A stretch of DNA of 64,000 nucleotides. It comes from Ectothiorhodospira lacustris (GTDB lineage Bacteria > Pseudomonadota > Gammaproteobacteria > Ectothiorhodospirales > Ectothiorhodospiraceae). Shown here piece by piece: positions 40,880 to 64,000 of the stretch. Location: positions 248,001 through 312,000 of the forward strand of contig NZ_JAJNQN010000002.1 of the NCBI RefSeq assembly GCF_022227845.1. Reading direction: 5' to 3'. The number at the start of each line of letters is the position of its first letter. Within the stretch, counting starts at the first letter, position 1. The notes under the pieces were generated by a model. It ran no database searches. It saw only the letters and a list, made by a program, of their open reading frames with translations, and was not told where the DNA came from. Made by a program: the position numbers and the translations under genes.

Positions 40880-41380
40880 TCACCCGACTTCATAGCGGAT
40901 CTTCACGATCTCGTAATGCTGCTCCCCCGCCGGGGTCTGCACCTTGACCTCGTCATCCAGGGCCTTGCCGAGCAGGGCGCGGGCCACGGGAGAATCCAGA
41001 CTGATCCAGCCCCGGTCCGGATCGAACTCGTCGGCACCCACGATACGGTATTCCACCTCCCGGTCCGCTTCGTCCAGCAACGTCACCCAGGCACCGAAAT
41101 AGACCTTGCCCCGGTCGGCCGGCGGCTCGCGCACCACCTTGAGGCCGGGCAGGCGCTTCTGCAGGTAACGAATCCGCCGATCGATCTCCCGCAGTTCCTT
41201 CTTGCGGTAGATGTATTCCGCATTTTCCGAGCGGTCGCCTTCCGCAGCGGCGGCGGCCAGATGACGGGTGACATCGGCGCGGCGGCCCCACAGGCCCGAC
41301 AGCTCTGCATCCAGAACAGCATAGCCCTGGGGCGTGATATGGGGCGAGGATCGGGGTGCGGGTGGGCGCCAGCGGCTCAT
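40880..41380 (-). CDS. greB: Transcription elongation factor GreB
   Basis: A 166-residue factor that rescues backtracked RNA polymerase. The N-terminal coiled coil (about 15-80) has the tip acidic pair in [24 protein letters not shown], with the GreB-type YIYRKKEL stretch. The C-terminal FKBP-like domain has [10 protein letters not shown] and [20 protein letters not shown]. The start [12 protein letters not shown] is normal for GreB; the open frame continues far upstream but the added residues are antisense to the phosphodiesterase gene. Confidence 0.95.
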
Positions 41381-41500
41381 GGGCTCAAGGATCCGTCGTA
41401 AGACATCCCCACAGCATACAACGCCTTGACGGGGAGCGGGATTTGCATGGTGGTCCGCCCTCTGTCTACCATCAACTGAATACCCCTCCGGGACAACCCC

Positions 41501-42655
41501 ATGCAGACACCCGATTACCAGGGTCATTGCCTGGCCAATCTGATGACCTCCCTGATCAGCGGCCTGGGCGGCACGCCCTCCTGTCACGGTCCCCTGCGTG
41601 CCCTGCCCCCCGAGGAAGTAGGCCGGCATCGCCATGTGGTCCTGGTGGTGGTGGATGGACTGGGTGACGGGTTCCTGAAGACCCGCCCCGCCCCGTTCCT
41701 CAACGGGCATCGCCGCGCCGGCATCCATGCCGTCTTTCCCACCACCACGGCCACCGGGATCACCACCTTCATCACCGGCGATGCCCCGGCCCAGCATGGC
41801 CTCACCGGCTGGCATGTGCATTTTCGTGAGCTGGGCACGGTACTGGCGGTACTGCCCGGCAAACCCCGCTACGGCGGAAGCGGGTATGATCGGGTGGAAG
41901 GCCTGGATGTCCTGAAGTGGCTGGGCCATGACGTCACCTTCAACCGCATCCCGGTTTCCAGCACCATGGTGGCCCCCAACAAGATCGCCAACACCCCCTT
42001 CAACAAGGCCCACAGGGGCAGGGCCCGGCTGCTGCCCTTCAGCAGCCTGCAGGACATGGTGAACCGGGTGGAACAGACGGTGAAGGGCCGGCACGGCAAC
42101 CGGTATGTCTATGCCTACTGGTCGGAACTGGACAGTCTCGGCCATTACCACGGCCCCGACGCCCCCCAGACCCGCAAGCACCTGGAGGAAGTCGACCGGG
42201 CCCTGGCAAACCTGGCCGCCCGCCTGGCGGGGACCGACACCCTGCTGATCATCACCGCCGACCACGGCATGACGGCGGTGGAACACCGACTGATACTGGC
42301 GGACCATCCCGAGATCGCCGACTGTCTGACCCTGCCCCTGTGCGGTGAGCCGCGGGTGGCCTGGGCCTATGTGCGCCATGGCCGGCATGAGCGGTTCGAA
42401 CGGCTGGTCAGGGAACGGCTGGGTCATGCCTGCACCCTGCGCCCCAGCGCGGAACTGCTGGAAGAAGGCTGGTTCGGCCCGGGCACGCCCCACCCCGAGC
42501 TGTCCGCGCGGATCGGGGACTATGCCCTGCTGATGCAGCCGGGGTGGATCGTCTCGGACCGGTTGCTGACGGAAAAACCCTTCGACATGAAGGGGGTGCA
42601 CGGAGGTCTGACGCCCGAGGAACTGGAAGTCCCACTGGTGGTGACGGTCTGCTGA
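41501..42655 (+). CDS. Alkaline phosphatase/phosphodiesterase superfamily protein
   Basis: A 384-residue protein of the type I phosphodiesterase/nucleotide pyrophosphatase fold. It has [13 protein letters not shown] with the first metal-binding aspartate, then [25 protein letters not shown] where the threonine nucleophile is expected, [20 protein letters not shown] and the final metal histidine in GVHGGLT. No signal peptide is seen, so it should be cytosolic. It probably hydrolyses a phosphodiester or nucleotide; the substrate is unknown. Confidence 0.88.
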
Positions 42656-42707
42656 GCGGGGTGACCGTGCTATCATCGCCGGTCACCCACTGGAACAGGA
42701 CACCGCC

Positions 42708-47704: not shown

Positions 47705-48685
47705 ATGACCGATCTCCCGACCCTGATCCGCTCCGTCACCTATCATGGCCTGGAGCCGGGTGGGCGGCTCATCGTGCTGGGTGCGGTGCATGGCAACGAG
47801 ACCTGCGGCACCCGGGGCATCGAGCGGGTGATGGCGGAACTGGACAGCGGGAAGCTGACCCTGGACCGTGGCCTGGTGACCTTCGTACCCGTCACCAATC
47901 CCCTGGCTTTCCAGCTCGGACAGCGCATGGGGGACCGCAACCTCAACCGCAACTTCCGCATCAGTGACACGCCGCTGGATTTTGAGGATCGTATTGCCAA
48001 CCGCCTGGGGCCCCTGCTGGCCCGGCATGACGTACTGCTGGACCTGCACTCCTTCCATACCCCGGGAGAGCCCTTCGTCATGCTGGGTCCTCGGGACAAT
48101 GCCGGCGAGCTGGAGCCCTTCACCCACGCCGCCGAAGAGGAGGCGCTGGCCCGGCGCCTGGGAGCCCGGCGCATCGTCGAGGGCTGGCTGGACACCTATG
48201 CCCGCGGCGTAGCCCGGCGCCTGCGCAATCCCAATGCAGACCTGCGGGCGCAGATGCTCAGCACCGACCCCAGCTACGGCATCGGCACCACCGAGTTCAT
48301 GCGCGCCGGGGGTGGTTATGCCCTCACCCTGGAATGTGGTCAGCACGAGGCCCCGGAGGCGCCCGCGGTGGCCTATCAGGCCATTATCAATACCCTCGCC
48401 CACCTGCAACTGGTGGACAGCCTGCCGGCGGCGCCCCCGGGGCAGGGCCTGGAAGTACTGAAGCTGGTGGAGGTGATCGATCGGGATCACCCGGAAGACC
48501 GGTTCTCCCGGGACTGGACCAGTTTCGATCCGATCCGCAAGGGGGATGAGATCGGTCGACGCCATGACGGCACCTCGGTGTCGGCACCGGCGGACGGCTT
48601 CATCGTCTTCCCCAACCCCAATGCCCTGCCGGGCAACGAGTGGTTCTATCTGGCCGAAGCCAGCGAACGGATGAGAACGGTCTAA
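47705..48685 (+). CDS. Succinylglutamate desuccinylase/aspartoacylase family protein
   Basis: A 326-residue zinc amidohydrolase. The zinc ligands are HGNE (GAVHGNETCG) and DLHSFH, and RNLNRNF with the catalytic glutamate in LTLECGQHE are in place. A C-terminal beta domain follows from about 250. It should remove an acyl group from an amino acid or related amide; without arginine-catabolism neighbours the AstE role is not supported. Its stop overlaps the convergent atpC-like gene by four bases. Confidence 0.88.
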   Translation: MTDLPTLIRSVTYHGLEPGGRLIVLGAVHGNETCGTRGIERVMAELDSGKLTLDRGLVTFVPVTNPLAFQLGQRMGDRNLNRNFRISDTPLDFEDRIANRLGPLLARHDVLLDLHSFHTPGEPFVMLGPRDNAGELEPFTHAAEEEALARRLGARRIVEGWLDTYARGVARRLRNPNADLRAQMLSTDPSYGIGTTEFMRAGGGYALTLECGQHEAPEAPAVAYQAIINTLAHLQLVDSLPAAPPGQGLEVLKLVEVIDRDHPEDRFSRDWTSFDPIRKGDEIGRRHDGTSVSAPADGFIVFPNPNALPGNEWFYLAEASERMRTV

Positions 48686-49146
48686 CCGCCGTTGCGCTTG
48701 CCACGCTTCTTGCGCGCCTTCTCCACCACCGCCAGCTGAGCCATGGCCTGCAGCAGGACCGCGTGGGCCTCGTCGCGGTCGGTGTAAAGCACGCTGTTCT
48801 GCATGATGTCCTCCGCCCGGCACTTGGCCTCGTGGGCAGCCTCCTCGTCGATATCCTCGCAGCGCATGGCCGTGTCCGCCAGCACGATCACCCCGCCGGG
48901 CTGGACTTCCAGCATGCCCCCGGAGACATAGAGGTACTCTTCTTCCCCGGACCCGACCGGAATGAAACGTACGACGCCCGGAAGGATAGGCGTCAGCAGC
49001 GCCGAATGACGGGGAAAGACCCCCAACTCACCGTTGACGCCCATGATGCAGACCTGGTGGACCTCTCCGGAATACAGTCGTTCCTCGGCACTGACGATAT
49101 CCAGAATCATGGTGGCGCCGTTGCGCGGCATGCTCGACACGGTCAC
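48682..49146 (-). CDS. atpC: Orphan ATP synthase epsilon subunit
   Basis: A 154-residue homologue of the F1 epsilon subunit: ILDIVSAEERLYSGEVHQVCIMGVNGELGVFPRHSALL, then EEYLYVSGGMLEVQPGGVIVLADTA, and a C-terminal helical hairpin with a basic tail (KKRGKRNGG). Normally epsilon controls rotary ATPase hydrolysis and is encoded at the end of the atp operon. Here no other atp gene is near. The start is a GTG overlapping the stop of the preceding kinase-like gene as GTGA, so the two are coupled. It may be a second copy that regulates something else. Confidence 0.88.
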   Translation of the reverse strand: MTVSSMPRNGATMILDIVSAEERLYSGEVHQVCIMGVNGELGVFPRHSALLTPILPGVVRFIPVGSGEEEYLYVSGGMLEVQPGGVIVLADTAMRCEDIDEEAAHEAKCRAEDIMQNSVLYTDRDEAHAVLLQAMAQLAVVEKARKKRGKRNGG

Positions 49147-49856
49147 GGTCTGCTGCTCCCCCTGGGTGCGTGTGCGGGTCGGGACAGACCCACATCCTTC
49201 ATCGCCGACAGGATCATGGTAGCCACCTTGTCCCAATCATGGAGCTTGTCGGTATTGATGGTCAGGTCGAACTGGGTCGGATCATTGGTACGTCGCTGGA
49301 TCAGACTCCAGAGAAACTGCTGACGCTGCTGGTTGATGGTTTCCACCTTTTCCCGGGCTTCATCTTCGGATAACCCCTCCTTCTCGGCGACTCGCCGAGC
49401 ACAATGCCGCGGGGAGCCGCAGATCCGTACGCGGAAAGCCGCCCGGTCGCGCAGGAACACGTGCCCCCCGCGGCCCATGATCACTCCCCCCTCCGCGCTG
49501 ATGGCCAACAGGACATTCACCAATGCCTTGCGGTAGGTACTCATGAAGTAGGCGTCTCCGGACAGCACCGAATAGACCCAGGTGCTCTTCCAAGCCGATA
49601 CCTTTTCATCCAGTTCCCTGAGCAATTCCTGATCCTGTTCCGTGTGCTTGGCCAGCCGCTCCAGCAGGACCTCATCGAAATAGGATACTTTGAGTTCGCG
49701 GGCCAGTATCATGGCGATCTCCTCCCCCCCCGCTCCGTAGTCACGGGCCATGGCCACCAGCGGCATGGCACCGGGGCCGCCACGACCTGAAGTATCCTTG
49801 TCATAGGTCTGCGACCGGATGTAACGCTGGATGAGATCATTCACATCATGCTGCAT
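49143..49856 (-). CDS. Cytidylate kinase-like family protein
   Basis: A 237-residue protein of the cytidylate-kinase-2 family. The P-loop is altered: ARDYGAGGEEIA replaces the usual GxxGxGKS/T. It keeps VIMGRGGHVFLRD, the arginine-rich lid GSPRHCARRVAEKEGLSEDEAREKVE and FDLTINTDK. Such proteins probably phosphorylate a nucleoside or related substrate but are not the housekeeping Cmk. It overlaps the orphan epsilon gene (GTGA), and it is divergent from the CBS/DUF294 gene. Confidence 0.82.
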   Translation of the reverse strand: MQHDVNDLIQRYIRSQTYDKDTSGRGGPGAMPLVAMARDYGAGGEEIAMILARELKVSYFDEVLLERLAKHTEQDQELLRELDEKVSAWKSTWVYSVLSGDAYFMSTYRKALVNVLLAISAEGGVIMGRGGHVFLRDRAAFRVRICGSPRHCARRVAEKEGLSEDEAREKVETINQQRQQFLWSLIQRRTNDPTQFDLTINTDKLHDWDKVATMILSAMKDVGLSRPAHAPRGSSRP

Positions 49857-53339: not shown

Positions 53340-53816
53340 TCACATCTTTTCCTGATCCTTTTTGACGGACATGTCCTTGAGTTCCTGCAACAGTTCCCGG
53401 AAGCGCTGATCAAGCCGCTCCATAGCCGATTCCTGGGCCAGCCGCATGGACTCAAAGGTCTCCCGGGTATGACTGCTCATGCGGTCATAAACCTTGCCCA
53501 CCATCTCTACTTGTTTCACCGGCAGATCATCCTGTTTTGACTCGCCTATGGCACGGGTCATTTCCGTGGTCTCGTTCATGGCCTGGGCCAGCATCTCCGT
53601 CTGACGCCTCATCAGGGACTCACTGCTTTCCATCATCGCCCGATTGGCCGCCATCATGGCTTCCACATTCCTTTTCTGCACCTCCATCAATGCGGACATG
53701 TCCATGTGCGGGATCTTGAACTGCTTCATGAACTCGTTCATCTGATCCATGTAGCGCTGCGGATCCATGAGTCTCATCAGCTCGGACATATCGAACGGGT
53801 TTTTCTCTTGCGGCAT
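53340..53816 (-). CDS. Phasin family protein
   Basis: A 158-residue Met- and Gln-rich, all-helical protein without membrane spans, typical of a phasin that coats polyhydroxyalkanoate granules: YMDQMNEFMKQFKIPHMDM, SALMEVQKRNVEAMMAANRAMMESSESLMRRQTEMLAQAMNE, and a C-terminal coiled coil. Its promoter should lie in the AT-rich gap upstream. No PHA synthase gene is visible, so the role is inferred from the fold and composition. Confidence 0.85.
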   Translation of the reverse strand: MPQEKNPFDMSELMRLMDPQRYMDQMNEFMKQFKIPHMDMSALMEVQKRNVEAMMAANRAMMESSESLMRRQTEMLAQAMNETTEMTRAIGESKQDDLPVKQVEMVGKVYDRMSSHTRETFESMRLAQESAMERLDQRFRELLQELKDMSVKKDQEKM

Positions 53817-54192
53817 GGCTGCGATCTCCTTCTCTGGTTGCAGGGTGGATGCAAGGCTGACCCTCCATCGCTAGAGCTTAGCCTAACGCATCGGGTCCGC
53901 GTGAGGGTCCTGGCCCATTTTCACGGAAAAACAGATTGTCATCGGCGTGTGGCAACACTGTGGATAAGCTGTTTCGAACCCGTGAATAAACTTCATCCAC
54001 AAACTTATCCACAATCCATACACATTTTCCGCGAAGGTTTCCCCTACGGTTCCACACAACGCATTCTGTGTACAACTTGTTGAAAAATTTAATATTTAAC
54101 GTTTTTTTCCCCTGCAGACCCCCGCCCTTATTATTGTTATTTAAAAGATTTTTAAAAAATTGATAGTAAAGGCACACCGCTTCATCCACACC
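53817..54192. other. AT-rich region with DnaA boxes (origin-like)
   Basis: No gene was found. Two perfect DnaA boxes in inverted orientation (TGTGGATAA at 53959-53967, TTATCCACA at 54005-54013) and two near matches TCATCCACA (53993-54001 and 54182-54190) flank two very AT-rich runs (about 54083-54110 and 54127-54170). The base composition differs sharply from the GC-rich surroundings. This is the layout of a bacterial origin or of a DnaA-bound regulatory region. The same stretch must also contain the phasin promoter. Confidence 0.5.
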
Positions 54193-56253
54193 TCAGGCGC
54201 CATTCTGGGAAATGCGATCCGCATCCATACGAATGGTCTCGGCTTCGATCCGGACCTCCCGACCCTGGATCACGACATCGCCACCGGCGGTGATCCGAAT
54301 GCCGGCCATACCATCACCGATCTGTATTCCGCCGGCCGCAGTTTTCCACAGCATTTCCCCCATCACGTGAAATCCCGCATCTCCCTGAAGAACGCGGCAT
54401 CGGAGATGCCCCTGTTCCGAGACCAGTTCAAGATCGTTGGCAGAGTTGAGTGTCATGGCGCCCTCACTGCGCTGCAGAAAATCCCCCTGTCGCGCCAGCA
54501 ATTGAAGGTTTTCTCCCGCCTCCAGCAACAGGTTGTCTGCCGCCTGATGACGGATCTCTCCGGATTCCGTGATCAACAAGGCGTCTCCCTGTACCTCGAC
54601 CTTCTGATCACCCCCGATCTCCACCTGCTGATCGGCACCGATTTTCAGGTGCATGGCCCTGCCCGAGAGCCAGTGCATTTCTCCGTGGCGGCTTTCCAGA
54701 ATCAGCCTGTGGGCATCCTGTGTGGCATCCAGGGTGAGGTGCAGATCCCCGTCCCGGGTGGCCAGCCGGAGTTGTTCGTTCCCGGTCCGGTCGTCTAGGC
54801 AGAGTTCGTTACCTGCCGGGGTACGCAACAGATTCTGCCCGGGGTTATCTGCGTTGACGGGAGAAGGCTGATCACGATTGGGCAAGGCACCAAGGATCAC
54901 AGGACGGTGAGGATCACTGTTTTCAAACCCCACCAGCACTTCGGTGCCGGGGTGCAGCGGAAAATGAAACCCCCCGCCACCAGGGGCTGCATAGGGGGTC
55001 AGCAGCCGCACCGGTGCACTGGCTTCAGCCACGGCATGGGCACCACCGTCAAAGTCAAAGCGCAGCCAATAACGACCCTGGTCATCCAGCAGGGGACCCT
55101 CACCAGGATTTCCATCCACCCGTGCCGCCAGACGGCCATGGACACGATGAGGCCGATAACGGGGCCGGAAGGGCTGTTCCAGGGGCAGAAGATCCACCTT
55201 CACCCGCAGATCCGGTGTGTGTCCGCCTGTCCCCCCCATGGGCAATGCGTGGGCCTGGGTTGCGTCCAGATCCACACGGACGATCACGTAGACGCGATTG
55301 AAGTCCTGACCGGGATAACCCGCGACGGACAGCCGTTGACCGGGTTCCAGGTCGGTACAGTCCGTGAGGATGCGGACTTGAAGGCGGTCGCACTCCAGAG
55401 CCTGCAGGCGCAGCTGCGCCAACCTTTCTCCTTCGCGAAGTTGGTGAAACCCCGTTCCCCAGTGTTCTTCCTTGCCGGCACCCGGCAGATCACCATTGCT
55501 GCGGACATGGACGGGGGCCGGCGTCCCCGGTTGATCGGGATCGTGATCCCGCAGTGTGATCGATGTCGGTAACAGCCGGGTCCTGGGCATGAGCCGATGA
55601 ATGGTGTGGAAACCACGGACCTCGCCCTTCAGAGGCTCGTAGCGCAGTGTTCGCATCTCGCCCTCAGCTGCCCTGCGAGAATCGTCCGAAATCACCAGGA
55701 CGGCCTTCTCAGCGCCCTGTTCGAAGCGATAATGCAACCCTTCGAAAGCCATGAGGCGAGACAGGAAGGCAAGATCATCTTCGTCCACCTGGGCGATGAA
55801 GGGGCGGACGGGATACCCCTCACCGCAAACCATGCGCCAGTCCCCCGGGCGCCAGCCGTGGCCGATCAGGACGCGCTCCAGGACCTGCGGTACGGTCAGG
55901 CGAGTGAAGACCCGCTGATGGCGGGAGCGGGCCAAGGGGCCCAAGGGAGATTCCAGGTGCACCCGCTGGCAGTGGTGGCCCGCGGGTCCGCTCTCGAGGT
56001 CATCCAGCCCGGTGATGATGCCGTGGACGGACCGCGTCCTCCCGCCCGGCATGAGGGCGGCACGACATCCCAGAACGAACGCAGAAGACAAAGGCACCGT
56101 TGCAAGGCAGTCCACGGTGATCCGATAGGACCTGGACAGACCGTAGTCGCGCCAGCTGAGCGTGAGGACCTCCGGCTGCGGTTCGGGACAGGTCGGGATC
56201 TTCAGTCGGTGACGTAGAGGCATCGGGGGTTGCGGCGGCGCGGTGTTCAGCAT
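54193..56253 (-). CDS. vgrG: VgrG, type VI secretion spike protein
   Basis: A 686-residue protein forming the trimeric tip of the type VI needle. The N-terminal gp27-like part has LTVPQVLERVLIGHGW and FLSRLMAFEGLHYRFE, a gp5 OB-fold follows around DDQGRYWLRFDFDGG and VRLLTPYA, with GTEVLVGFENSDPHRPVILG, and a C-terminal beta-helix of short repeats (KIGADQQVEIGGDQKVEVQGD) ends in EAETIRMDADRISQNGA. No effector domain is fused. It overlaps tssG by seven bases and is the last gene of the visible operon. Confidence 0.95.
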   Translation of the reverse strand: MLNTAPPQPPMPLRHRLKIPTCPEPQPEVLTLSWRDYGLSRSYRITVDCLATVPLSSAFVLGCRAALMPGGRTRSVHGIITGLDDLESGPAGHHCQRVHLESPLGPLARSRHQRVFTRLTVPQVLERVLIGHGWRPGDWRMVCGEGYPVRPFIAQVDEDDLAFLSRLMAFEGLHYRFEQGAEKAVLVISDDSRRAAEGEMRTLRYEPLKGEVRGFHTIHRLMPRTRLLPTSITLRDHDPDQPGTPAPVHVRSNGDLPGAGKEEHWGTGFHQLREGERLAQLRLQALECDRLQVRILTDCTDLEPGQRLSVAGYPGQDFNRVYVIVRVDLDATQAHALPMGGTGGHTPDLRVKVDLLPLEQPFRPRYRPHRVHGRLAARVDGNPGEGPLLDDQGRYWLRFDFDGGAHAVAEASAPVRLLTPYAAPGGGGFHFPLHPGTEVLVGFENSDPHRPVILGALPNRDQPSPVNADNPGQNLLRTPAGNELCLDDRTGNEQLRLATRDGDLHLTLDATQDAHRLILESRHGEMHWLSGRAMHLKIGADQQVEIGGDQKVEVQGDALLITESGEIRHQAADNLLLEAGENLQLLARQGDFLQRSEGAMTLNSANDLELVSEQGHLRCRVLQGDAGFHVMGEMLWKTAAGGIQIGDGMAGIRITAGGDVVIQGREVRIEAETIRMDADRISQNGA

Positions 56254-57131
56254 GGGTGTCGATCTCCCCGTTCGATGCCGGAAATCGGTTGCTGCGGCAG
56301 GGGGATCAGGCGTGCTTCATGGGAACCCCGGCATTCGCCCAGTGGCGTGCTCAAACCCAGATAGAGATCACCGTTACCCAGGCCCCGTGGTTGCTCCGGT
56401 GTCATTTGCATTACCGGTTGGAACGGGGTGAACGGCCCCAGATAGGCCCGGATCTCCCGGGTAAGTCCGACACGTCCCGCGTACAGCGCGACGGCCTGGC
56501 CGGGTGTCAGGGGACCGATGAGGATGCGTAATCCCTCGGGGACTCGGACTTCTTCTCCAAGGGCCGCATCCCGGCCCAGGCAGGTACCGTCGAGGGAGCC
56601 CAGGCGGGTGGTCTCGGGTAGGGGGCGCCGACAGTAACGGAAGGTATGGAGGGTCACTTCTAGCCCCGTCATTCCCAGGTGGTCCAGCATCCGCATGATC
56701 CTGGCCTTCAGGCCCGGTGCCGTGGGCATCCCTGATGGCTTCAATGCGTCCAGATAGCGCAGCAAGGGAGGCGGCGCCTCCATGCACGTGAACAGATAGG
56801 CTCTTGGCGTCCGCCAGGTCGCCAGCAGCAGTTGATGAAAACGCCGATCGAAGAGATCCAGGAAGGCGCGTAGGGCCTCCGCATCAGGGTCCTGACGGCA
56901 GAGACCTTCCAGGTCTTCCAGCGGCAAGGGAGACAGGGGACCCCGGAGGCCCGGAAAAACGGTTTCGATCCTGTGAACTGCCCCTTCCCGTTGAGCACGG
57001 CGCACGGGGGTGGCGGGGAAGTCCAGATCGGCACTGGTGATGGCTGACGGGGGCCTTTCAGCGGACATCGTCAGGATTCGTAGCAGTTCCGGCAGCCCGA
57101 AGGCATGATATGGGTGAGTCGGCAGGCTCAT
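56247..57131 (-). CDS. tssG: TssG, type VI baseplate subunit
   Basis: A 294-residue baseplate wedge protein (DUF1305/ImpH family). It opens HAFGLPELLRIL and has HRIETVFPGLRGPLSPLPLEDL, DLFDRRFHQLLL, LGRDAALGEEVRVPEGLRILIGPL and a C-terminal TPLGECRGSHEARLI. TssG binds TssF in the wedge around the VgrG hub. Its ATG overlaps the tssF stop. The family is divergent, but position between tssF and vgrG supports the call. Confidence 0.93.
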   Translation of the reverse strand: MSLPTHPYHAFGLPELLRILTMSAERPPSAITSADLDFPATPVRRAQREGAVHRIETVFPGLRGPLSPLPLEDLEGLCRQDPDAEALRAFLDLFDRRFHQLLLATWRTPRAYLFTCMEAPPPLLRYLDALKPSGMPTAPGLKARIMRMLDHLGMTGLEVTLHTFRYCRRPLPETTRLGSLDGTCLGRDAALGEEVRVPEGLRILIGPLTPGQAVALYAGRVGLTREIRAYLGPFTPFQPVMQMTPEQPRGLGNGDLYLGLSTPLGECRGSHEARLIPLPQQPISGIERGDRHPC

Positions 57132-58915
57132 TGCGGTATGGGTGGGTGATCAGGGGGTGCGGGCCAAGTGATGTCCTGGCCGCCGGGGCGAGCCTTGAGG
57201 CGCAGGCGGACCCCCTGATGAATGGGGGCCTGCATTGACAGGGCAAAGGCCAGTACCTGTCCCAGCAAAGCTGCTTCCGCCCTGCCGGCAAAGACCGCGA
57301 GATCGACGGCCAGGGTGAGCGCTTGCCCGACGTGCAATGCACCCCGGCGCCAGCGGGTGAAAGGGATCGCTTCCAGGTCCAGGATGCCTGTCGGCAGCTT
57401 CCGCCGGAGCGGGTCTCGGGTCCAGTCCAGCATGTCCAGCCACTGGCTCAGGTCTTCAGTGGACCGTAGACCGCCCTGCTGCATGGAAACCTGCCTGATC
57501 AGGGTCCAGCGCCAGTCCCCCCGAGTTGGAGGCGGATAGAGCCGACCGGGCCTGGACAAGGCGGAGATGCTCAGGCCGGTACCAGGATCACGCACGGCCT
57601 CAAGCGGAGTTCCGGCCGCGATATGGTCATGGGGATAGTGGCCGTTGTGGGCCAGCACCCGGCAGGACAGGGTTTCGTGGCGAGGGGCTTGTGCCGGGTC
57701 CAGTCCCAGCCGGATGCGGGTATGACCGGTCACGTCGGTGTGCACCAGGGGCTCATAGCCTCCCTGCTCGACTTCCGGCAGGGTTTCGGAAAACATCAGC
57801 GGATACCGCCGCCGCTGTCCGGTGACGGAGTCCATCCCCTGCACCTGTTCCACCCGGTAGATCTGCAGGGATTCCGGCCGGCGGTTGTCCACGGTCAGCG
57901 GATATTCAGCTCGCCGTGGGTCCCTTACCAGAGGCTCGGCATCCTGCTCGAAGAGGTTGACCGCTGCCACACAATGAAGGCGCAGGGCGTGACGGTAGCG
58001 TGAGGGAGAGCCGGGCAGTCTGCGTCCGAGGACAATCCCCAGACGGAACCGGCGGGTGTTGCGGGGCAGCTGCCAGCTTTGGCCAAGGTGCAGGGTGATG
58101 AAACGGAACCGGTCTTTGAAATGGAAAAAATCCTGCAGCAGATTGAATCCTGGAAAGGCCGTTTCCCGGAATTCAGGCCTTACTCCGTATTGCCAAAGGG
58201 CGTAGGAAGGGTGGATGCCGGCCTGGTCGCCGAAGGCCATTTCACGAATGCCCTGCGACGGATCTTCCAGTAGATGCACCGAGTCGGTGGCGGTCACCAG
58301 GTGATCCAGCAGGGACATGTCCGCATCGCCGTCTTCGGGCACATGCAGATCCAGCGCCGTGGGCAAGGGTTGGTCCGGATCATGGGGTTCGTGCAGCGCC
58401 AGATCCAGGATCAAGCACCCGCCCTTTATCCCCTCACGGCGATACTCGACGGCCTCCAGATGCACGGGTTGGAAGGTGACCGGCCAGAGGGTCCGGAAAC
58501 GGCAGCACGTTTGCTCGGCCCCCACCGGTGGACTCTGCACCAGAGTACCGGCCGAGAGGGTGAATGCCTGTCGGCGCCGATGTTGCTGCGCCAGTTGCAG
58601 TACCGTACAGGCCGGATACGGACGCAGGGCCTCGGGTCTGAGGCGGGTGAGCAGCCCTGCGCAGACGTCCGGCTGCTCTTCATCCAGCCGCTGCCGGATG
58701 AGGGCGGCAAGAAAGGCCATACCCTGGAACAGCCGCTCCACACGGGGGTCTCTGGTCCGCGGATCATCCAGGCTGAGGGCGTGCGCCTGGTGCGGATAGG
58801 CCCTTGCAAACTCGGCCGCCGCTTCGGTCAAAAGCAGCAATTCTTCGTCGAAATGCCCCTTGAGGCCCGCACCGGGTGTGGTCAACGGGGCAAACAGGTC
58901 CTGTGAGTCTTGCAT
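57128..58915 (-). CDS. tssF: TssF, type VI baseplate subunit
   Basis: A 595-residue baseplate wedge protein (DUF879/ImpG family). Markers are FDEELLLLTEAAAEFARAYPHQAHAL near the start, DPRVERLFQGMAFLAALIRQRLDEE and the later PFTRWRRGALHVGQALTLAVDLAVF. The start MQDSQDLF follows AAGGA; an in-frame ATG 30 codons further upstream overlaps the hcp end and is unlikely. It overlaps tssG. No tssE is found in the 71-base gap to hcp. Confidence 0.94.
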   Translation of the reverse strand: MQDSQDLFAPLTTPGAGLKGHFDEELLLLTEAAAEFARAYPHQAHALSLDDPRTRDPRVERLFQGMAFLAALIRQRLDEEQPDVCAGLLTRLRPEALRPYPACTVLQLAQQHRRRQAFTLSAGTLVQSPPVGAEQTCCRFRTLWPVTFQPVHLEAVEYRREGIKGGCLILDLALHEPHDPDQPLPTALDLHVPEDGDADMSLLDHLVTATDSVHLLEDPSQGIREMAFGDQAGIHPSYALWQYGVRPEFRETAFPGFNLLQDFFHFKDRFRFITLHLGQSWQLPRNTRRFRLGIVLGRRLPGSPSRYRHALRLHCVAAVNLFEQDAEPLVRDPRRAEYPLTVDNRRPESLQIYRVEQVQGMDSVTGQRRRYPLMFSETLPEVEQGGYEPLVHTDVTGHTRIRLGLDPAQAPRHETLSCRVLAHNGHYPHDHIAAGTPLEAVRDPGTGLSISALSRPGRLYPPPTRGDWRWTLIRQVSMQQGGLRSTEDLSQWLDMLDWTRDPLRRKLPTGILDLEAIPFTRWRRGALHVGQALTLAVDLAVFAGRAEAALLGQVLAFALSMQAPIHQGVRLRLKARPGGQDITWPAPPDHPPIPQ

Positions 58916-58986
58916 TGCGTTTCCTTGCCGCGCCGAATTCATGCCTGGACCCGGTTCCAATGGGTCCAGGCGGGCTGATGCCTGAT

Positions 58987-59472
58987 TCAGCGATTTTCCA
59001 CCCATGAGTCCTGGAACTCGATGTTGCCGTCCACGTAGGTCCAGGTAATGCGTCCATAGCGTAGGGCAACCTGCTCCAGGTGGGGGTAGCGTTCCTTATC
59101 CAGTTCCTTGACGTTGTGCATCACCGGTTTGACCGAGGTCACCTTCACATCTTCCAGGCGGTGGCGGAAGTACTCCCGCTCCGAACCGCTGTCATCGATG
59201 CGGTACCAGCTGATGACCACTTCCTTGAGGGTCTGGCCATTACTGCAGGCCTTGTAAAGATAGGGGGATACCTTGTCGAAGGTCTTGGTAAAGCGCAGGG
59301 GCTCATGCTTTCGGGTACCGGTCAGGGCGCCCGTATCCGAATCGGTGGGGATGCGGATCTCGTGATCGAGTTGCAGCACTTCCACCGTGTGGCGGCGCCC
59401 CGTGATCTGTACCGGACCTTCCACGAGGGCACCCTGGTCGTCACGCAGGCTCATATAGGCGGGAATCGGCAT
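58987..59472 (-). CDS. hcp: Hcp, type VI secretion tube protein
   Basis: A 161-residue protein forming the hexameric inner tube. It begins MPIPAYMSLRDDQGALVEGPVQ and has HTVEVLQLDHEIRIP, HEPLRFTKTFDKVSPYLYKACSNGQTLKEVVISWYR, and DSWVENR at the end. A tube protein at this place after tssC is usual. It probably shares the tssABC promoter or has its own, which cannot be seen. Confidence 0.96.
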   Translation of the reverse strand: MPIPAYMSLRDDQGALVEGPVQITGRRHTVEVLQLDHEIRIPTDSDTGALTGTRKHEPLRFTKTFDKVSPYLYKACSNGQTLKEVVISWYRIDDSGSEREYFRHRLEDVKVTSVKPVMHNVKELDKERYPHLEQVALRYGRITWTYVDGNIEFQDSWVENR

Positions 59473-59523
59473 GTGGCACTGTCTCCTTGTCAGGGTTGTC
59501 GGCTATCCATGGCAATGTGCGTT

Positions 59524-61050
59524 TCAGTCCCGGGATCGGGGCATCCGGGCCAGCAGGGAGAGGCGAACGTCCACCCCCTCGATCTGGAAATGGGGCATGA
59601 CCTGGAGGGTCACGGCGTAGAAGCCCGGGTTTTCCGGAATCTCCTCCACGGTCACCCGACCATCCCGCAGGGGATGGGTGGCCACCAGAGCCGGGTCCGG
59701 GTTGCGCATGCGGGTCACCAGGCCCTGCAGCCATTGGTTCAGTTCATCTTCCAGGGTCTGACGGGATTTGGCGGCACCGATGTTTTCCCGCTGCAGGATC
59801 TTCAGGTAGTGGGAGATCCGGGAAACCAGAAACACGTAGGGTAAACGGGCATTGATGCGGCAGTTGGCGGTAGCCTGCGCACCGCTGTATTCCATCGGTT
59901 TCTGCACCGAGTTGGCGGAAAAGAAGCAGGCAAAGTCCCGGTTCTTGTAATAGCTCAGGGGGATGAAACCCAGCTTCGCATATTCCAGTTCGCGGGTTTC
60001 GGAGATGAGAAATTCCGTGGGCATGCGGGTCTGCAGGCCATGCCCCAGGTCCACCTGATGCAGGGGCAGATCGCTGACCCGTCCGCCCGATTCCGGGCCC
60101 CGGATGTTCACTGCCCAACCATGCAGTCGGAAACTCTCCGCCATGTTGGCGCCAAAGGCGAACGCGGCGTTGCCCCACAGATATTTCCCGGCATCCTCAC
60201 CACTGACGTCTTCCCGGTAGCACAGCCCCCGGGCGGGTCGGTCATTACCCCAGGGCGGACGCAGCAGAAAACGCGGTAAGGTCAGTCCCACGTAGCGGGC
60301 ATCCTGGGTTTCCCGGAAGGCATTCCAGCGAATGAAGGCAGCCTGCTCCATGTAGTTGGAGAGATCCTGGATACGAGGCAGGTCCGATGTCTGTGTCTTG
60401 CCGAAAAAGGCCGGACCCACCGCGCCGATGAAGGGGCAGTGGCAGGCGGCGCAGACCCGGGAGATCTCCCGCAGCAGGCCGATGTCCCGGGCGGTGTTGT
60501 CGAAATGGTAATCGGCAATGATGGTGGAGACAGGCTCACCGCCGGGGGTGTCGTACTCCTGCGTATAGAGCTGACGGTAAAGACCGCTGCGGACGGTATC
60601 CGGGGCATCCTCGAAGTCTTCCAGCAGTGCCTCCTTGCTCAGGTCCATCAGCTCCACTTTCACGTTGGCCCGGCGATCACAGCGATCCAGCAGGAACTGA
60701 AGACTTCGCCAGGCCGATTCCAGGGCCTGAAATTCGGGATGATGCAGCACCTCATCCAGTTGCCGGCCGATCCGCTCATCCAGGCTGGCGATCAGGGCAT
60801 CCACCAGAGTCTTATCGATGCGCTGTTCGCCCGGCTCGGAGTCTTCCAGCAATTGCAGCAAGACCCCGAGGGCGGCGGTCAAGCGGTCCCCCGGTGAGGT
60901 CTCGCTCAGGTGCAGGTCATCGCTGAAACGGTCCAGGTTGACCGCTTGCCGCAGGGGTTCCACATCCACAATGCGGCACAAACGCTGGTAGGGGCCGATC
61001 TGTTCCCGTGGGGTGAGGTGCGTCTGCTCGCCGACTTCCATGATGCTCAT
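59524..61050 (-). CDS. tssC: TssC, type VI sheath large subunit
   Basis: A 508-residue protein that with TssB forms the contractile sheath. Recognised stretches are VDALIASLDERIGRQLDEVLHHPEFQALESAWRSLQFLLDR, SKEALLEDFEDA, CHCPFIGAVGPAFFG, AYGFGANMAESFR-like AFAFGANMAESFRLHGW, and a C-terminal domain with NPGFYAVTLQVMPHFQIEGVDVRLSL. It overlaps the tssB stop as ATGA, so the two are translationally coupled, matching the 1:1 need in the sheath. Confidence 0.97.
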   Translation of the reverse strand: MSIMEVGEQTHLTPREQIGPYQRLCRIVDVEPLRQAVNLDRFSDDLHLSETSPGDRLTAALGVLLQLLEDSEPGEQRIDKTLVDALIASLDERIGRQLDEVLHHPEFQALESAWRSLQFLLDRCDRRANVKVELMDLSKEALLEDFEDAPDTVRSGLYRQLYTQEYDTPGGEPVSTIIADYHFDNTARDIGLLREISRVCAACHCPFIGAVGPAFFGKTQTSDLPRIQDLSNYMEQAAFIRWNAFRETQDARYVGLTLPRFLLRPPWGNDRPARGLCYREDVSGEDAGKYLWGNAAFAFGANMAESFRLHGWAVNIRGPESGGRVSDLPLHQVDLGHGLQTRMPTEFLISETRELEYAKLGFIPLSYYKNRDFACFFSANSVQKPMEYSGAQATANCRINARLPYVFLVSRISHYLKILQRENIGAAKSRQTLEDELNQWLQGLVTRMRNPDPALVATHPLRDGRVTVEEIPENPGFYAVTLQVMPHFQIEGVDVRLSLLARMPRSRD

Positions 61051-61583
61051 GGCTGATCTTCCTCTGAAGGTGCCGGATCCTGTGAGGGACCGGCCAGCGG
61101 TGTCAGGGTCTGTAGATCCCGATTCAATGCCGCCAGATCGTGACGATCGCGGATGATGCGTTCCAGTTCTCGACGGAAGGCTGCATTGTCCAGCATGCTG
61201 GACTTGAGTTCCCTGAGCAGGTTGCGCATCGCCAGGAGCCTGGCCAAAGGCTCGATGCGAGTGGCCACCGCTTCGGGTCGAAAGTCACGCATGTGCTGAA
61301 AGCACAGGGAGACGGGGATCTCACCACCTCCGGATTCCAGTTGGTTGGGGACCGTGAAACGGATCGCCGGCGCCAGGGTCTGCAATACGGCTTCCAGATT
61401 GTCACGGCTGACTTCCACCCGTGGGCGGTCCACCACCTTGCCTTGGGTCCGGCCGCGACTGAAGTCGCCGATGACCAACGCCTTGAAGGGCAGATCCACC
61501 CTTCGGGGGGAACCGTCGCCATCCACATCCAGGGTGATGTTCACCCTGGCCCTGGGGATTTCTTCCTGAAAACTGCCCGTCAT
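61047..61583 (-). CDS. tssB: TssB, type VI sheath small subunit
   Basis: A 178-residue sheath protein: MTGSFQEEIPRARVNITLDV, FKALVIGDFSRGRTQGKVVDRPRVEVSRDNLEAVL, and FRPEAVATRIEPLARLLAMRNLLRELKSSMLDNAAFRREL. It overlaps both tssA (ATGA) and tssC, giving a tightly coupled A-B-C unit. The tail ends with a short acidic stretch. Confidence 0.96.
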   Translation of the reverse strand: MTGSFQEEIPRARVNITLDVDGDGSPRRVDLPFKALVIGDFSRGRTQGKVVDRPRVEVSRDNLEAVLQTLAPAIRFTVPNQLESGGGEIPVSLCFQHMRDFRPEAVATRIEPLARLLAMRNLLRELKSSMLDNAAFRRELERIIRDRHDLAALNRDLQTLTPLAGPSQDPAPSEEDQP

Positions 61584-63094
61584 GTGAGGACTCCTGTCCG
61601 GTTGATGTCCAAGGGGGGATGTGTGCAGGCAGACTCAATAGCCGGCAAAGTCATGGCCTGGACTGGAGCGACGGCGCACAGACGCCGGGCACAGGCACGG
61701 GCCAAGGTGGGGTCCAGGGCCTTGGCGGTGGCATGCAAACGCCCCAGCAGGGCCGAGGCAATCTCAGGATCCCAGTCCAGCACGTGAGTCTGATCCAGCT
61801 GCCGATGCAAGTTCACCAGCACATCGTGGGCTACATCCCTGCGTCCTTGCCGCAGGGACAGGTCCGCCTGCAGCAGCCCCAGCCGGGCACGATCACGCAG
61901 GCTCATGGCCGGGATCCGGTTCAGAGTCTCCCAGTCCATGTCCGGGGGCAGATGGGGAGGAATGCAGTCCGAGAACGACTGGCCGGTGGTGTCAGCCGCC
62001 CCTGGGGGCACCGACATGGCGGCATTAACCGATGGAGATTCCGACAACCAGCGACGGGTGGCCTCGTCCATGAAGGGGCGTCCGTCCTCAAAGCACAGAG
62101 CTTCCAATTCCGGCAGACGCTTCAGCAACAGCCGTACCGATCCCTGCAGATAGGCGCCCAGTTCCGGTCGGTCCATCCCTTCGGTGGCCCTGGCAAGCCG
62201 GTATTGCAGATCCAGGGCCAGATGAAAACCCGGCTCAAAGAAGCACTCCATGCCGCGCCGGAAGGCGGCCGCCCAGTCACCGGCATTCAGGATGCTTTCC
62301 AATCCCTCCCAGCTTTCCGATCGGGGAGCTGGAATCCGCGTCACTCCCTGCCGCGCCGGAGGCAGACCCAGGCTGCCCCATCGGGCTGCCTGCGCCAGGG
62401 CGCAAGCCTGCAGTAGCTCGCCTTCGGCCAGGAGGTGATCATGGAAACCACGAACCCCTTCCAGCCAGGTGTCCGGATTGGCCGATGGCTCGAATCCCCT
62501 GCCCCGTTCCAGCGCTTCCGGTGCCTGTGCGGCCTGATCTTCGGCGGTGGAGGGCTGACAGTGATCGATCCACCGGCGCAGTACCCTGCAGGGCGGTGCG
62601 GCTCTTGTGCCTTCCGGATCCCTTGCCATGAGTTCCTGTTCCAGCTCGCCCATGGTTGCGTGCAGAGCCTTTGCCAGAGATGGCTCAGGCAGTGTCCGTC
62701 GATCCTGCAGCAGTCGTTCCAGACGCTCGTTGTCCAGCCAGGCCAAGGCCGCCCGGCGTCGTGCCAATGAGCGCGGATGACAGTGGTCCCAGTGGTTCCG
62801 GATCATGCCGTGGTAGAGTCTCAGCCCCGCCGCCAGGCCCTCCGGGCCATGGCGGGTGACCAGTGCCAGGAGCAGATAACCGGCGATCCGCAGATCCTTG
62901 GCCTGGGTATGAAGAAAATGGTTCCCCATCTCGATCAGATGGTCAAAATCAACGCCGTGCAGCTGTTCGATTTTTTCCCGTATGGCGATGAAGCCATCGT
63001 TGAATCGGGGATCTTCGTCACAGTTCATCTCACCGGGACCGGCGATGTCCTCAAGCCGTGTTCTCAGGTGGGCAGGCAACGGGGAGGGATCCAT
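61580..63094 (-). CDS. tssA: TssA, type VI assembly cap protein
   Basis: A 504-residue protein with an N-terminal ImpA_N domain (GEMNCDEDPRFNDGFIAIREKIEQLHGVDFDHLIEMGNHFL, DHCHPRSLARRRAALAWL) and a C-terminal VasJ-like domain of helical repeats (DRARLGLLQADLSLRQGRRDVAHDVLVNL). TssA primes and stabilises sheath assembly. The ATG start shares its A with the tssM stop (TGATG), so translation is coupled. The domain set marks the longer TssA type. Confidence 0.9.
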   Translation of the reverse strand: MDPSPLPAHLRTRLEDIAGPGEMNCDEDPRFNDGFIAIREKIEQLHGVDFDHLIEMGNHFLHTQAKDLRIAGYLLLALVTRHGPEGLAAGLRLYHGMIRNHWDHCHPRSLARRRAALAWLDNERLERLLQDRRTLPEPSLAKALHATMGELEQELMARDPEGTRAAPPCRVLRRWIDHCQPSTAEDQAAQAPEALERGRGFEPSANPDTWLEGVRGFHDHLLAEGELLQACALAQAARWGSLGLPPARQGVTRIPAPRSESWEGLESILNAGDWAAAFRRGMECFFEPGFHLALDLQYRLARATEGMDRPELGAYLQGSVRLLLKRLPELEALCFEDGRPFMDEATRRWLSESPSVNAAMSVPPGAADTTGQSFSDCIPPHLPPDMDWETLNRIPAMSLRDRARLGLLQADLSLRQGRRDVAHDVLVNLHRQLDQTHVLDWDPEIASALLGRLHATAKALDPTLARACARRLCAVAPVQAMTLPAIESACTHPPLDINRTGVLT

Positions 63095-64000
63095 CACGGA
63101 CTCCGACGGGGAAAGGGTGAACGGCTGAGGCGAAAATCCTGAAACAGGGTTTCGTGGATGAAGTTCTGGCGCCGGTCCGCCCGCAGGTGAAAGCGCAGTT
63201 CCAGGGGGGCATCACCCTCCCCCATGAGAGGCCAGCGGACGGTGTAGAGATGGCTGTCACTGTGCTCCCTGTCCATGTGTGCCGTGTGCAGCAGCCGGAA
63301 CAGGGCCCAGACGCCCTCCTCCCGGAACTCTCCCAGTGGACGGCCGCCATGGTCCACCGCCATCACCCTGGCACCTGGACTGCGGATGTCTCCCGGCCAG
63401 ACGAACTGGCGCCATTCCTGGGGCTCGTTGCGATAACGGTATTGCTGACCGTTGGTTTCAAACCGCATCTCGCTCAGCCCTGGATGAGGAATGGGATAGA
63501 GGTGAAATCCCAGGCGAGGCTCATCCCGCCCATCGGCAAACAGGGCGCTGGTAAGCCGACCGGCCCGCTCCAGATCGTGGAGAAATGCGCGGGAAAACCC
63601 GGGGCCGATGCCGATCCATTGCCGTGACTGCCAGCGTCCCTGGCGCTCCGTCAGGAAAGGGTCCAGGTGCTCCTGGGTAAAACGCCACAGGCGACCCCGT
63701 TCAGGGTGGATCAGGCCCACCAGATCCACCAGGGCGGCGTCTTCCCCCTGGGGGTGAAACGGAAAACGACCTGCCAGGCGATCCTGGTATCCATCGTGGA
63801 CCTGGCTCTGCCAGGTTTTTTCCAGATCCACGGCGGCCTGACGGATCACGGTGCGCCAACTTTCCTGCACAATGCTCTTCATCAACGGTGCCAGGGGCCG
63901 GCAACCGCTGTCTTTAGAGCCTGTGAGGCGAGGGATGGCCACCCAGGCCCGTTGCAGCGCCGTGCCGGATCCCTGTCCGGACAGCAGCGCGGCAGCGTGG
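63094..64000 (-). CDS. tssM: TssM, type VI inner-membrane complex protein, C-terminal part
   Basis: The last 301 residues of TssM (IcmF family) run to the window end; the N-terminal membrane and ATPase-like parts lie outside. Visible parts are IVQESWRTVIRQAAVDLEKTWQSQVHDGYQDRLAGRFPFHP and HPERGRLWRFTQEHLDPFLTERQGRW, followed by the C-terminal beta domain with EWRQFVWPGDIRSPGARVMA and GEFREEGVWALFRLLHTA. The periplasmic C-terminus contacts TssJ. The gene leads the visible operon and ends on the tssA start. Confidence 0.93.
   Translation of the reverse strand, partial: HAAALLSGQGSGTALQRAWVAIPRLTGSKDSGCRPLAPLMKSIVQESWRTVIRQAAVDLEKTWQSQVHDGYQDRLAGRFPFHPQGEDAALVDLVGLIHPERGRLWRFTQEHLDPFLTERQGRWQSRQWIGIGPGFSRAFLHDLERAGRLTSALFADGRDEPRLGFHLYPIPHPGLSEMRFETNGQQYRYRNEPQEWRQFVWPGDIRSPGARVMAVDHGGRPLGEFREEGVWALFRLLHTAHMDREHSDSHLYTVRWPLMGEGDAPLELRFHLRADRRQNFIHETLFQDFRLSRSPFPRRSP

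Follow-up and report, generated by a model that had tools for sequence, protein, structure and literature searches.

The intergenic region between a phasin-family gene and a vgrG-like gene in the purple sulfur bacterium Ectothiorhodospira lacustris very probably represents a complete DnaA-dependent chromosomal origin of replication (oriC), which, as judged from sequence, would have been the main origin over evolutionary time and would have been displaced past the mnmE-yidC-rnpA-rpmH-dnaA block. This reading rests on the layout of DnaA boxes, homology to origins located between dnaA and dnaN, conservation across the genus, and coincidence with a switch in strand composition; from these observations we infer DnaA binding, unwinding, and firing at the site. 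Displacement from dnaA alone is an ordinary finding, which also applies to the oriC of E. coli; the presence of a second complete module, by contrast, is unusual.

Organization of the site

The window analysed here is a stretch of 64,000 nucleotides, corresponding to bases 248001-312000 of a 339,374-base contig (C12) in a draft genome of 3.28 Mb; unless otherwise indicated, coordinates refer to this window. Positions 53817-54192 (376 bases) are exactly the gap between the phasin and vgrG genes, and the two perfect and two one-mismatch DnaA boxes as well as the two AT-rich runs described in the initial annotation were all confirmed. The whole origin module, supported by profile matches (nhmmer), spans 53955..54190 on the plus strand; it opens with an inverted pair of DnaA boxes and weak boxes, followed by an AT-rich region, a GC-rich spacer, a trio-like repeat, and a second AT-rich region. 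The inverted pair consists of two perfect boxes, TTATCCACA, at 53959..53967 (minus strand) and 54005..54013 (plus strand); in the second of these, most columns are invariant across 14 aligned origins. A one-mismatch box, TCATCCACA, lies between them at 53993..54001 (plus strand), and a conserved weak box, ATCCATACACA, whose ACA end is invariant in the 14 aligned origins, directly follows at 54014..54024 (plus strand). AT-rich run I (about 54078..54108), where AT content in a 100-bp window reaches 0.73 (i.e., the top 0.01% of the contig), leads into a degenerate DnaA box with 3 mismatches, TTTTCCCCT, at 54105..54113 (plus strand), which is TTATCCA-like in many relatives. A 14-bp GC-rich spacer (54114..54127) then precedes a trinucleotide repeat that resembles DnaA-trios (lower strand 3'-AAT AAT AAC AAT AAA-5'; 54128..54142, minus strand), the CTTATTA core of which is strongly conserved in the aligned origins. 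This repeat stands at the start of AT-rich run II (about 54128..54171), which, judged by composition, probably forms the unwinding element together with run I. The second one-mismatch box, TCATCCACA at 54182..54190 (plus strand), is retained in close relatives only, and an additional TTTTCCACA was found at 54342, within vgrG.

The site is thus an intergenic DnaA-box cluster, and the top-scoring one of the 339-kb contig, with an AT-rich element, as defined by composition, adjoining the boxes. The clustering clearly exceeds what chance would give. Across the 3.28-Mb genome, there are 18 occurrences of TTATCCACA and 6 of a reversed control, and placing 18 boxes at random would yield about 0.006 pairs within 60 bp. 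The arrangement TGTGGATAA-N37-TTATCCACA is present at two places in the genome, namely at this site and between dnaA and dnaN, and the reversed control is found nowhere; eight Ectothiorhodospira genomes have an inverted pair with a 37-bp gap on the phasin side, among them G008, where the first box carries one mismatch. Equally AT-rich 100-bp windows are found at three places in the contig, i.e., at this site, at dnaA-dnaN, and at about 188 kb, the last of these being beside or in a 4-kb bin of low GC content (0.445). That bin (G000:C12:184000-188000, L023) is a low-GC patch in a contig of 64% GC and is perhaps a mobile element.

Some features fit an origin less well. Only two of the boxes are perfect, which counts against the oriC reading. 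A basal unwinding system (BUS) consists of a DnaA box, a spacer of at most 16 bp, and DnaA-trios. By the strict version of this definition, a box with at most 2 mismatches is located at most 16 bp from at least 3 DnaA-trios; the trio-like run at the site lies 14 bp from a box with three mismatches, and the strict arrangement was found only on the phasin side in E. shaposhnikovii DSM 243 (G002) and in the dnaA-dnaN copies of E. mobilis DSM 4180 (G001) and G008. The 376-bp gap contains a single GATC, at its edge, which makes control of the E. coli SeqA/Dam type unlikely.

If the site functions as the layout suggests, DnaA would bind the two high-affinity boxes of the inverted pair, with their 37-bp gap, together with the adjoining weaker boxes and would then spread across the AT-rich stretch toward the degenerate box and the trio-like repeat (54105-54142), where the duplex would open and helicase would be loaded for two forks.

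Genomic neighbourhood

The left neighbour of the site is the phasin-family gene (53340..53816, minus strand; Pfam Phasin_2, E 5e-12), and the right neighbour is the vgrG-like gene (54193..56253, minus strand), with which, according to a Pfam domain scan, a type VI secretion block begins; the boxes hence lie upstream of the phasin start codon, and the 3' end of vgrG faces the site. The type VI block (window 54193-63942; L011:2258-4311), with Pfam matches to Phage_GPD, TssG, TssF, Hcp, VipB, VasJ, IcmF, VasE, and DotU, directly adjoins the origin and, in this genome, separates it from the mnmE-dnaA block. A vgrG-like sequence is also found next to the site in G006, G007, and G009, and E. mobilis carries a different gene there, which is thioesterase-like by its likeness to L011:6793-7314. 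The genes dnaA and dnaN, the location of which the initial annotation had proposed to check, are outside the window but share its contig, lying 25 kb to the right of the site, past the type VI block, mnmE, yidC, and the rnpA region. Adjacency to dnaA, dnaN, or mnmG, which is usual but not obligatory for an oriC, is therefore lacking at the site. A different contig carries mnmG, which in G007 lies at a distance of 117 kb; neither mnmG nor parB is adjacent to the site, which counts against the oriC reading, and the single ParB_N match in the genome is also located on another contig.

DnaA groups the genome studied here with E. shaposhnikovii, and the named relatives recovered in a search with the phasin all belong to Ectothiorhodospira; this search yields almost nothing outside the genus because the phasin is not part of the module. 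A second phasin paralogue, 42% identical, is encoded at G000:C49:48586-49044 (L036), with no perfect DnaA-box pair within 1.5 kb. Elsewhere in the window, 48682-49236 encodes an ATP synthase epsilon chain, the start region of which overlaps a cytidylate-kinase-like gene, with no other atp gene among the neighbours scanned, and 40880-42676 encodes a 598-aa ORF with a GreA/GreB domain pair at its C-terminal end only.

Homology to origins between dnaA and dnaN

Two nhmmer profiles were used that contained no phasin-side copy of this genus. The first, based on dnaA-dnaN regions from eight Ectothiorhodospira genomes, matched 53957-54161 with 61.0 bits (E 6.4e-17), and the second, for which six genomes from other genera of the family supplied the dnaA-dnaN regions, matched 53959-54141 with 31.1 bits (E 1.1e-7); the latter has two matches on this contig, with the site scoring 31.1 bits and the dnaA-dnaN region 22.9 bits. 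The site is thus homologous to origins of its relatives (61 and 31 bits), a relationship that needed profiles to be revealed, since the best that ordinary blastn yielded between the site and the dnaA region was a 30-bit match (E 0.14). The aligned copies share, at closely similar spacing, the box pair, a CACA-like core, the AT-rich stretch, the TTATCCA-like box, a 14-15-bp spacer, and the CTTATTA trio-like core. The dnaA-dnaN origins of six genomes from two sister genera (including G015 and G023) carry the same box pair, weak boxes, and AT-rich stretch, and in these origins box, spacer, and CTTATTA trio-like core follow one another at a spacing similar to that at the site; the gap within the box pair is 37 bp in some and 48 bp in G023. 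While these sister-genus genomes have one copy, at dnaA-dnaN, the copy at the skew switch in the present genome lies 25 kb away from that position, past mnmE.

GC skew

A check of GC skew, as proposed in the initial annotation, favoured the site over dnaA. The minimum of cumulative GC skew in the 339-kb contig is at 55846 (C12:303846), 1.9 kb from the site. In 4-kb bins, skew is mostly negative for 304 kb, with a few bins zero or slightly positive, and every bin is positive in the remaining 35 kb; dnaA-dnaN, at 325-327 kb, falls well inside the positive part. A similar pattern was found in the complete genome G007 (3,550,080 bp), where the skew minimum is at 1,107,264, the box pair at 1,108,028 (i.e., 0.8 kb apart), and dnaA at 1,084,466; here, 400 kb around the site were read and the remainder was sampled in twenty 20-kb stretches rather than as a full cumulative curve. 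All six samples from 1.80-2.70 Mb were positive, those from 1.42-1.64 Mb were mixed and near zero, and those from 2.88 Mb round to 0.82 Mb were all negative, which places the opposite switch at around 2.7-2.9 Mb, roughly half the chromosome from the site. For six named loci that include the site, cumulative skew over a 14-20-kb stretch reaches its minimum 0.2-2.9 kb from it, and in this genome, G007, E. shaposhnikovii, E. marina, E. haloalkaliphila, and E. mobilis, the local switch goes with the phasin-side copy. The skew minimum thus coincides with the site on the contig and, locally, in relatives, which supports the option of a displaced oriC raised in the initial annotation.

In a 100-kb stretch of E. 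shaposhnikovii, the minimum (116,831) is between the copies, 2.2 kb from the phasin-side copy (114,633) and 6.9 kb from the dnaA-dnaN copy (123,722). As a control for confounding by gene orientation, third-codon skew was split by gene strand; for minus-strand genes of E. shaposhnikovii, it was -0.026 to the left, +0.095 between the copies, and +0.089 to the right. The interval between the copies hence sides with dnaN in E. shaposhnikovii, and in G007 it sides with the dnaA side, so that in both genomes the interval belongs to the arm that contains dnaA, which puts the switch at the phasin side. In the present genome, strand-controlled third-codon skew between the sites is only weakly positive (+0.021, 4919 sites) as compared to about zero in the left arm, which may reflect a recent arrival of the type VI genes in this interval. 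A 100-kb stretch of E. mobilis DSM 4180 has a deeper minimum at 81.7 kb, 63 kb away, such that only the local minimum fits the site; this deeper minimum may reflect a rearrangement. In the sister genera, used as an outgroup control, the local skew minimum of two genomes is about 17 and 47 kb from the sole origin module; the minima of G015 (-15.9 kb in record coordinates), G023 (+48 kb), and G013 are all away from any origin module next to dnaA, indicating that skew alone is imprecise there. Moreover, skew records history, and the site that currently fires could thus differ.

Copy number and evolution of the two modules

A sequence model of 154 positions, the training set of which comprised copies of both kinds (this site included), matched exactly two places in this genome, i.e., the site (86.6 bits) and dnaA-dnaN (86.4 bits). 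With the same model, two modules were found in 8 of 10 Ectothiorhodospira genomes and one in the other 2; where one contig carries both, they are 9-27 kb apart. Members of the family from other genera have exactly one match at E <= 0.1 in 33 of 37 genomes, the exceptions being one genome in which another match is marginal (E 0.046) and three genomes, all incomplete, with none. The position of dnaA was determined in six of these genomes, from two genera, and in all six the module adjoins it. In G013, from a third genus, the contig coordinates of the sole model match (G013:C4:1849680-1849791, E 3e-6) put it about 1.5 Mb away from dnaA.

The two Ectothiorhodospira genomes with one module differ in which copy they carry. 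E. magna (G004) has the dnaA-dnaN copy only, which is probably its sole origin, and its phasin contig contains neither a module nor an informative switch; the skew minimum of the 62-kb contig with dnaA-dnaN is 4 kb from the region. The dnaA-dnaN region of E. magna (G004 C20:43737-44333, L172-L175) contains eight perfect DnaA boxes and several with one mismatch, a density far above that in other species, which coincides with the absence of a phasin-side origin. In the DnaA tree, G005 forms the deepest of the branches assigned to Ectothiorhodospira; its single copy is flanked by mnmE and a TauE/SafE-like gene. This gene neighbourhood is the same as in the window, with the TauE-like gene replacing the phasin, and the dnaA-dnaN gap is only about 45 bp. 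In E. mobilis, which has both copies, the box pair at dnaA-dnaN is degraded.

Mean identity between species is 0.57 and 0.56 for the two copies, as compared to 0.47-0.55 between the two copies within a genome. On average, copies of the same kind are thus more alike between species than are the two copies of one genome, and the duplication hence looks older than most of the genus; the tree of copies is based on a short alignment and is weakly supported at depth. The position between dnaA and dnaN is probably ancestral, and the copy there would now be secondary or silent in this species. A tentative extension of these data is that most Ectothiorhodospira species might carry two complete homologous DnaA-dependent origins, 9-27 kb apart, which have been selected as functional since early in the genus, with the dominant one switching among species (on the phasin/mnmE side in most, and at dnaA-dnaN in E. 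magna).

Alternative explanations

Among other readings of these data, the most credible, although still doubtful, is that both modules fire, with the phasin-side module dominant and the dnaA-dnaN copy serving as an auxiliary or conditional origin. Eight of the ten genomes have retained both copies, which show about the same conservation between species and keep boxes, AT-rich region, and trio-like motif; their lower similarity within a genome also makes them appear separate since early in the genus. By contrast, there is a single skew switch near the pair, the dnaA-dnaN copy may be retained for regulation of dnaN or dnaA, and the box pair of this copy is degraded in E. mobilis. That the dnaA-dnaN copy is the sole active origin, with the phasin-side copy acting as a DnaA-titration (datA-like) or regulatory site, would agree with the single dnaA-dnaN module in the six sister-genus genomes checked and with the probable sole origin of E. 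magna; this is nevertheless improbable, as the local skew switch tracks the phasin-side copy in six Ectothiorhodospira genomes, G005 carries the mnmE-side copy only, its dnaA-dnaN gap being about 45 bp, and an AT-rich region for unwinding would not be required at a titration site.

The initial annotation had also raised a DnaA-controlled promoter and a plasmid or chromid origin, both of which fared poorly. The location of the boxes upstream of the phasin start codon would suit a promoter of the phasin gene, and type VI genes were considered as another target, yet vgrG faces the site with its 3' end, the module is kept in E. mobilis and G005 despite another far neighbour (in G005 next to a TauE-like gene rather than a phasin gene), and a promoter leaves unexplained both the skew switch and the approximately 200-bp homology to dnaA-dnaN origins; we consider this reading highly unlikely. 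An origin of a plasmid, chromid, or integrated replicon is the least plausible reading, to the point of being negligible: while the adjoining type VI genes could be mobile, the contig carries mnmE, yidC, dnaA, and dnaN, the orthologous site in G007 is on a 3.55-Mb chromosome, the ParB_N match is on another contig, and the module is homologous to dnaA-dnaN origins. This candidate was rejected given the chromosomal genes on the contig and since no replication initiator or parAB of its own was found beside the site among the neighbouring genes scanned.

Comparison to known origins

The preferred reading, a displaced main oriC, has a parallel in E. coli, where a DnaA-box origin with an AT-rich unwinding element is also located apart from dnaA. 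E. coli oriC adjoins mnmG, whereas the site described here does not. The separation of E. coli oriC from dnaA has been described previously (PMC8287927). For two origin sequences on one chromosome, a possible parallel is Pseudomonas aeruginosa; as summarized in PMC4403523 (citing Yee and Smith 1990; Jiang et al. 2006), two autonomously replicating elements are present on one chromosome, only one of which was reported to be essential in the laboratory. With this case in mind, one active and one silent module is a fair default for Ectothiorhodospira. Bipartite origins, such as those of Bacillus subtilis and Helicobacter pylori, similarly have two DnaA-box regions in the neighbourhood of dnaA; however, the halves of a bipartite origin share one unwinding element across a spacer gene, spanning up to about 2 kb in all (PMC4285127), whereas the copies described here each have all modules, including their own AT-rich region and trio-like motif, and are 9-27 kb apart (25 kb in this genome).

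Implications

A search of open-access literature, which leaves out most subscription journals, turned up no previous description of two origins in Ectothiorhodospira. While displaced origins are already known, the long-term retention of two homologous DnaA origins appears to be new. A genus with two alignable copies of one origin, and with species that are missing either copy, represents a natural series that lets one ask how origins move, whether a chromosome tolerates a second origin at a distance of 9-27 kb, and what directs DnaA to one of two homologous sites. Should just one of the two fire, the other copy would show for how long, and why, a silent origin persists.
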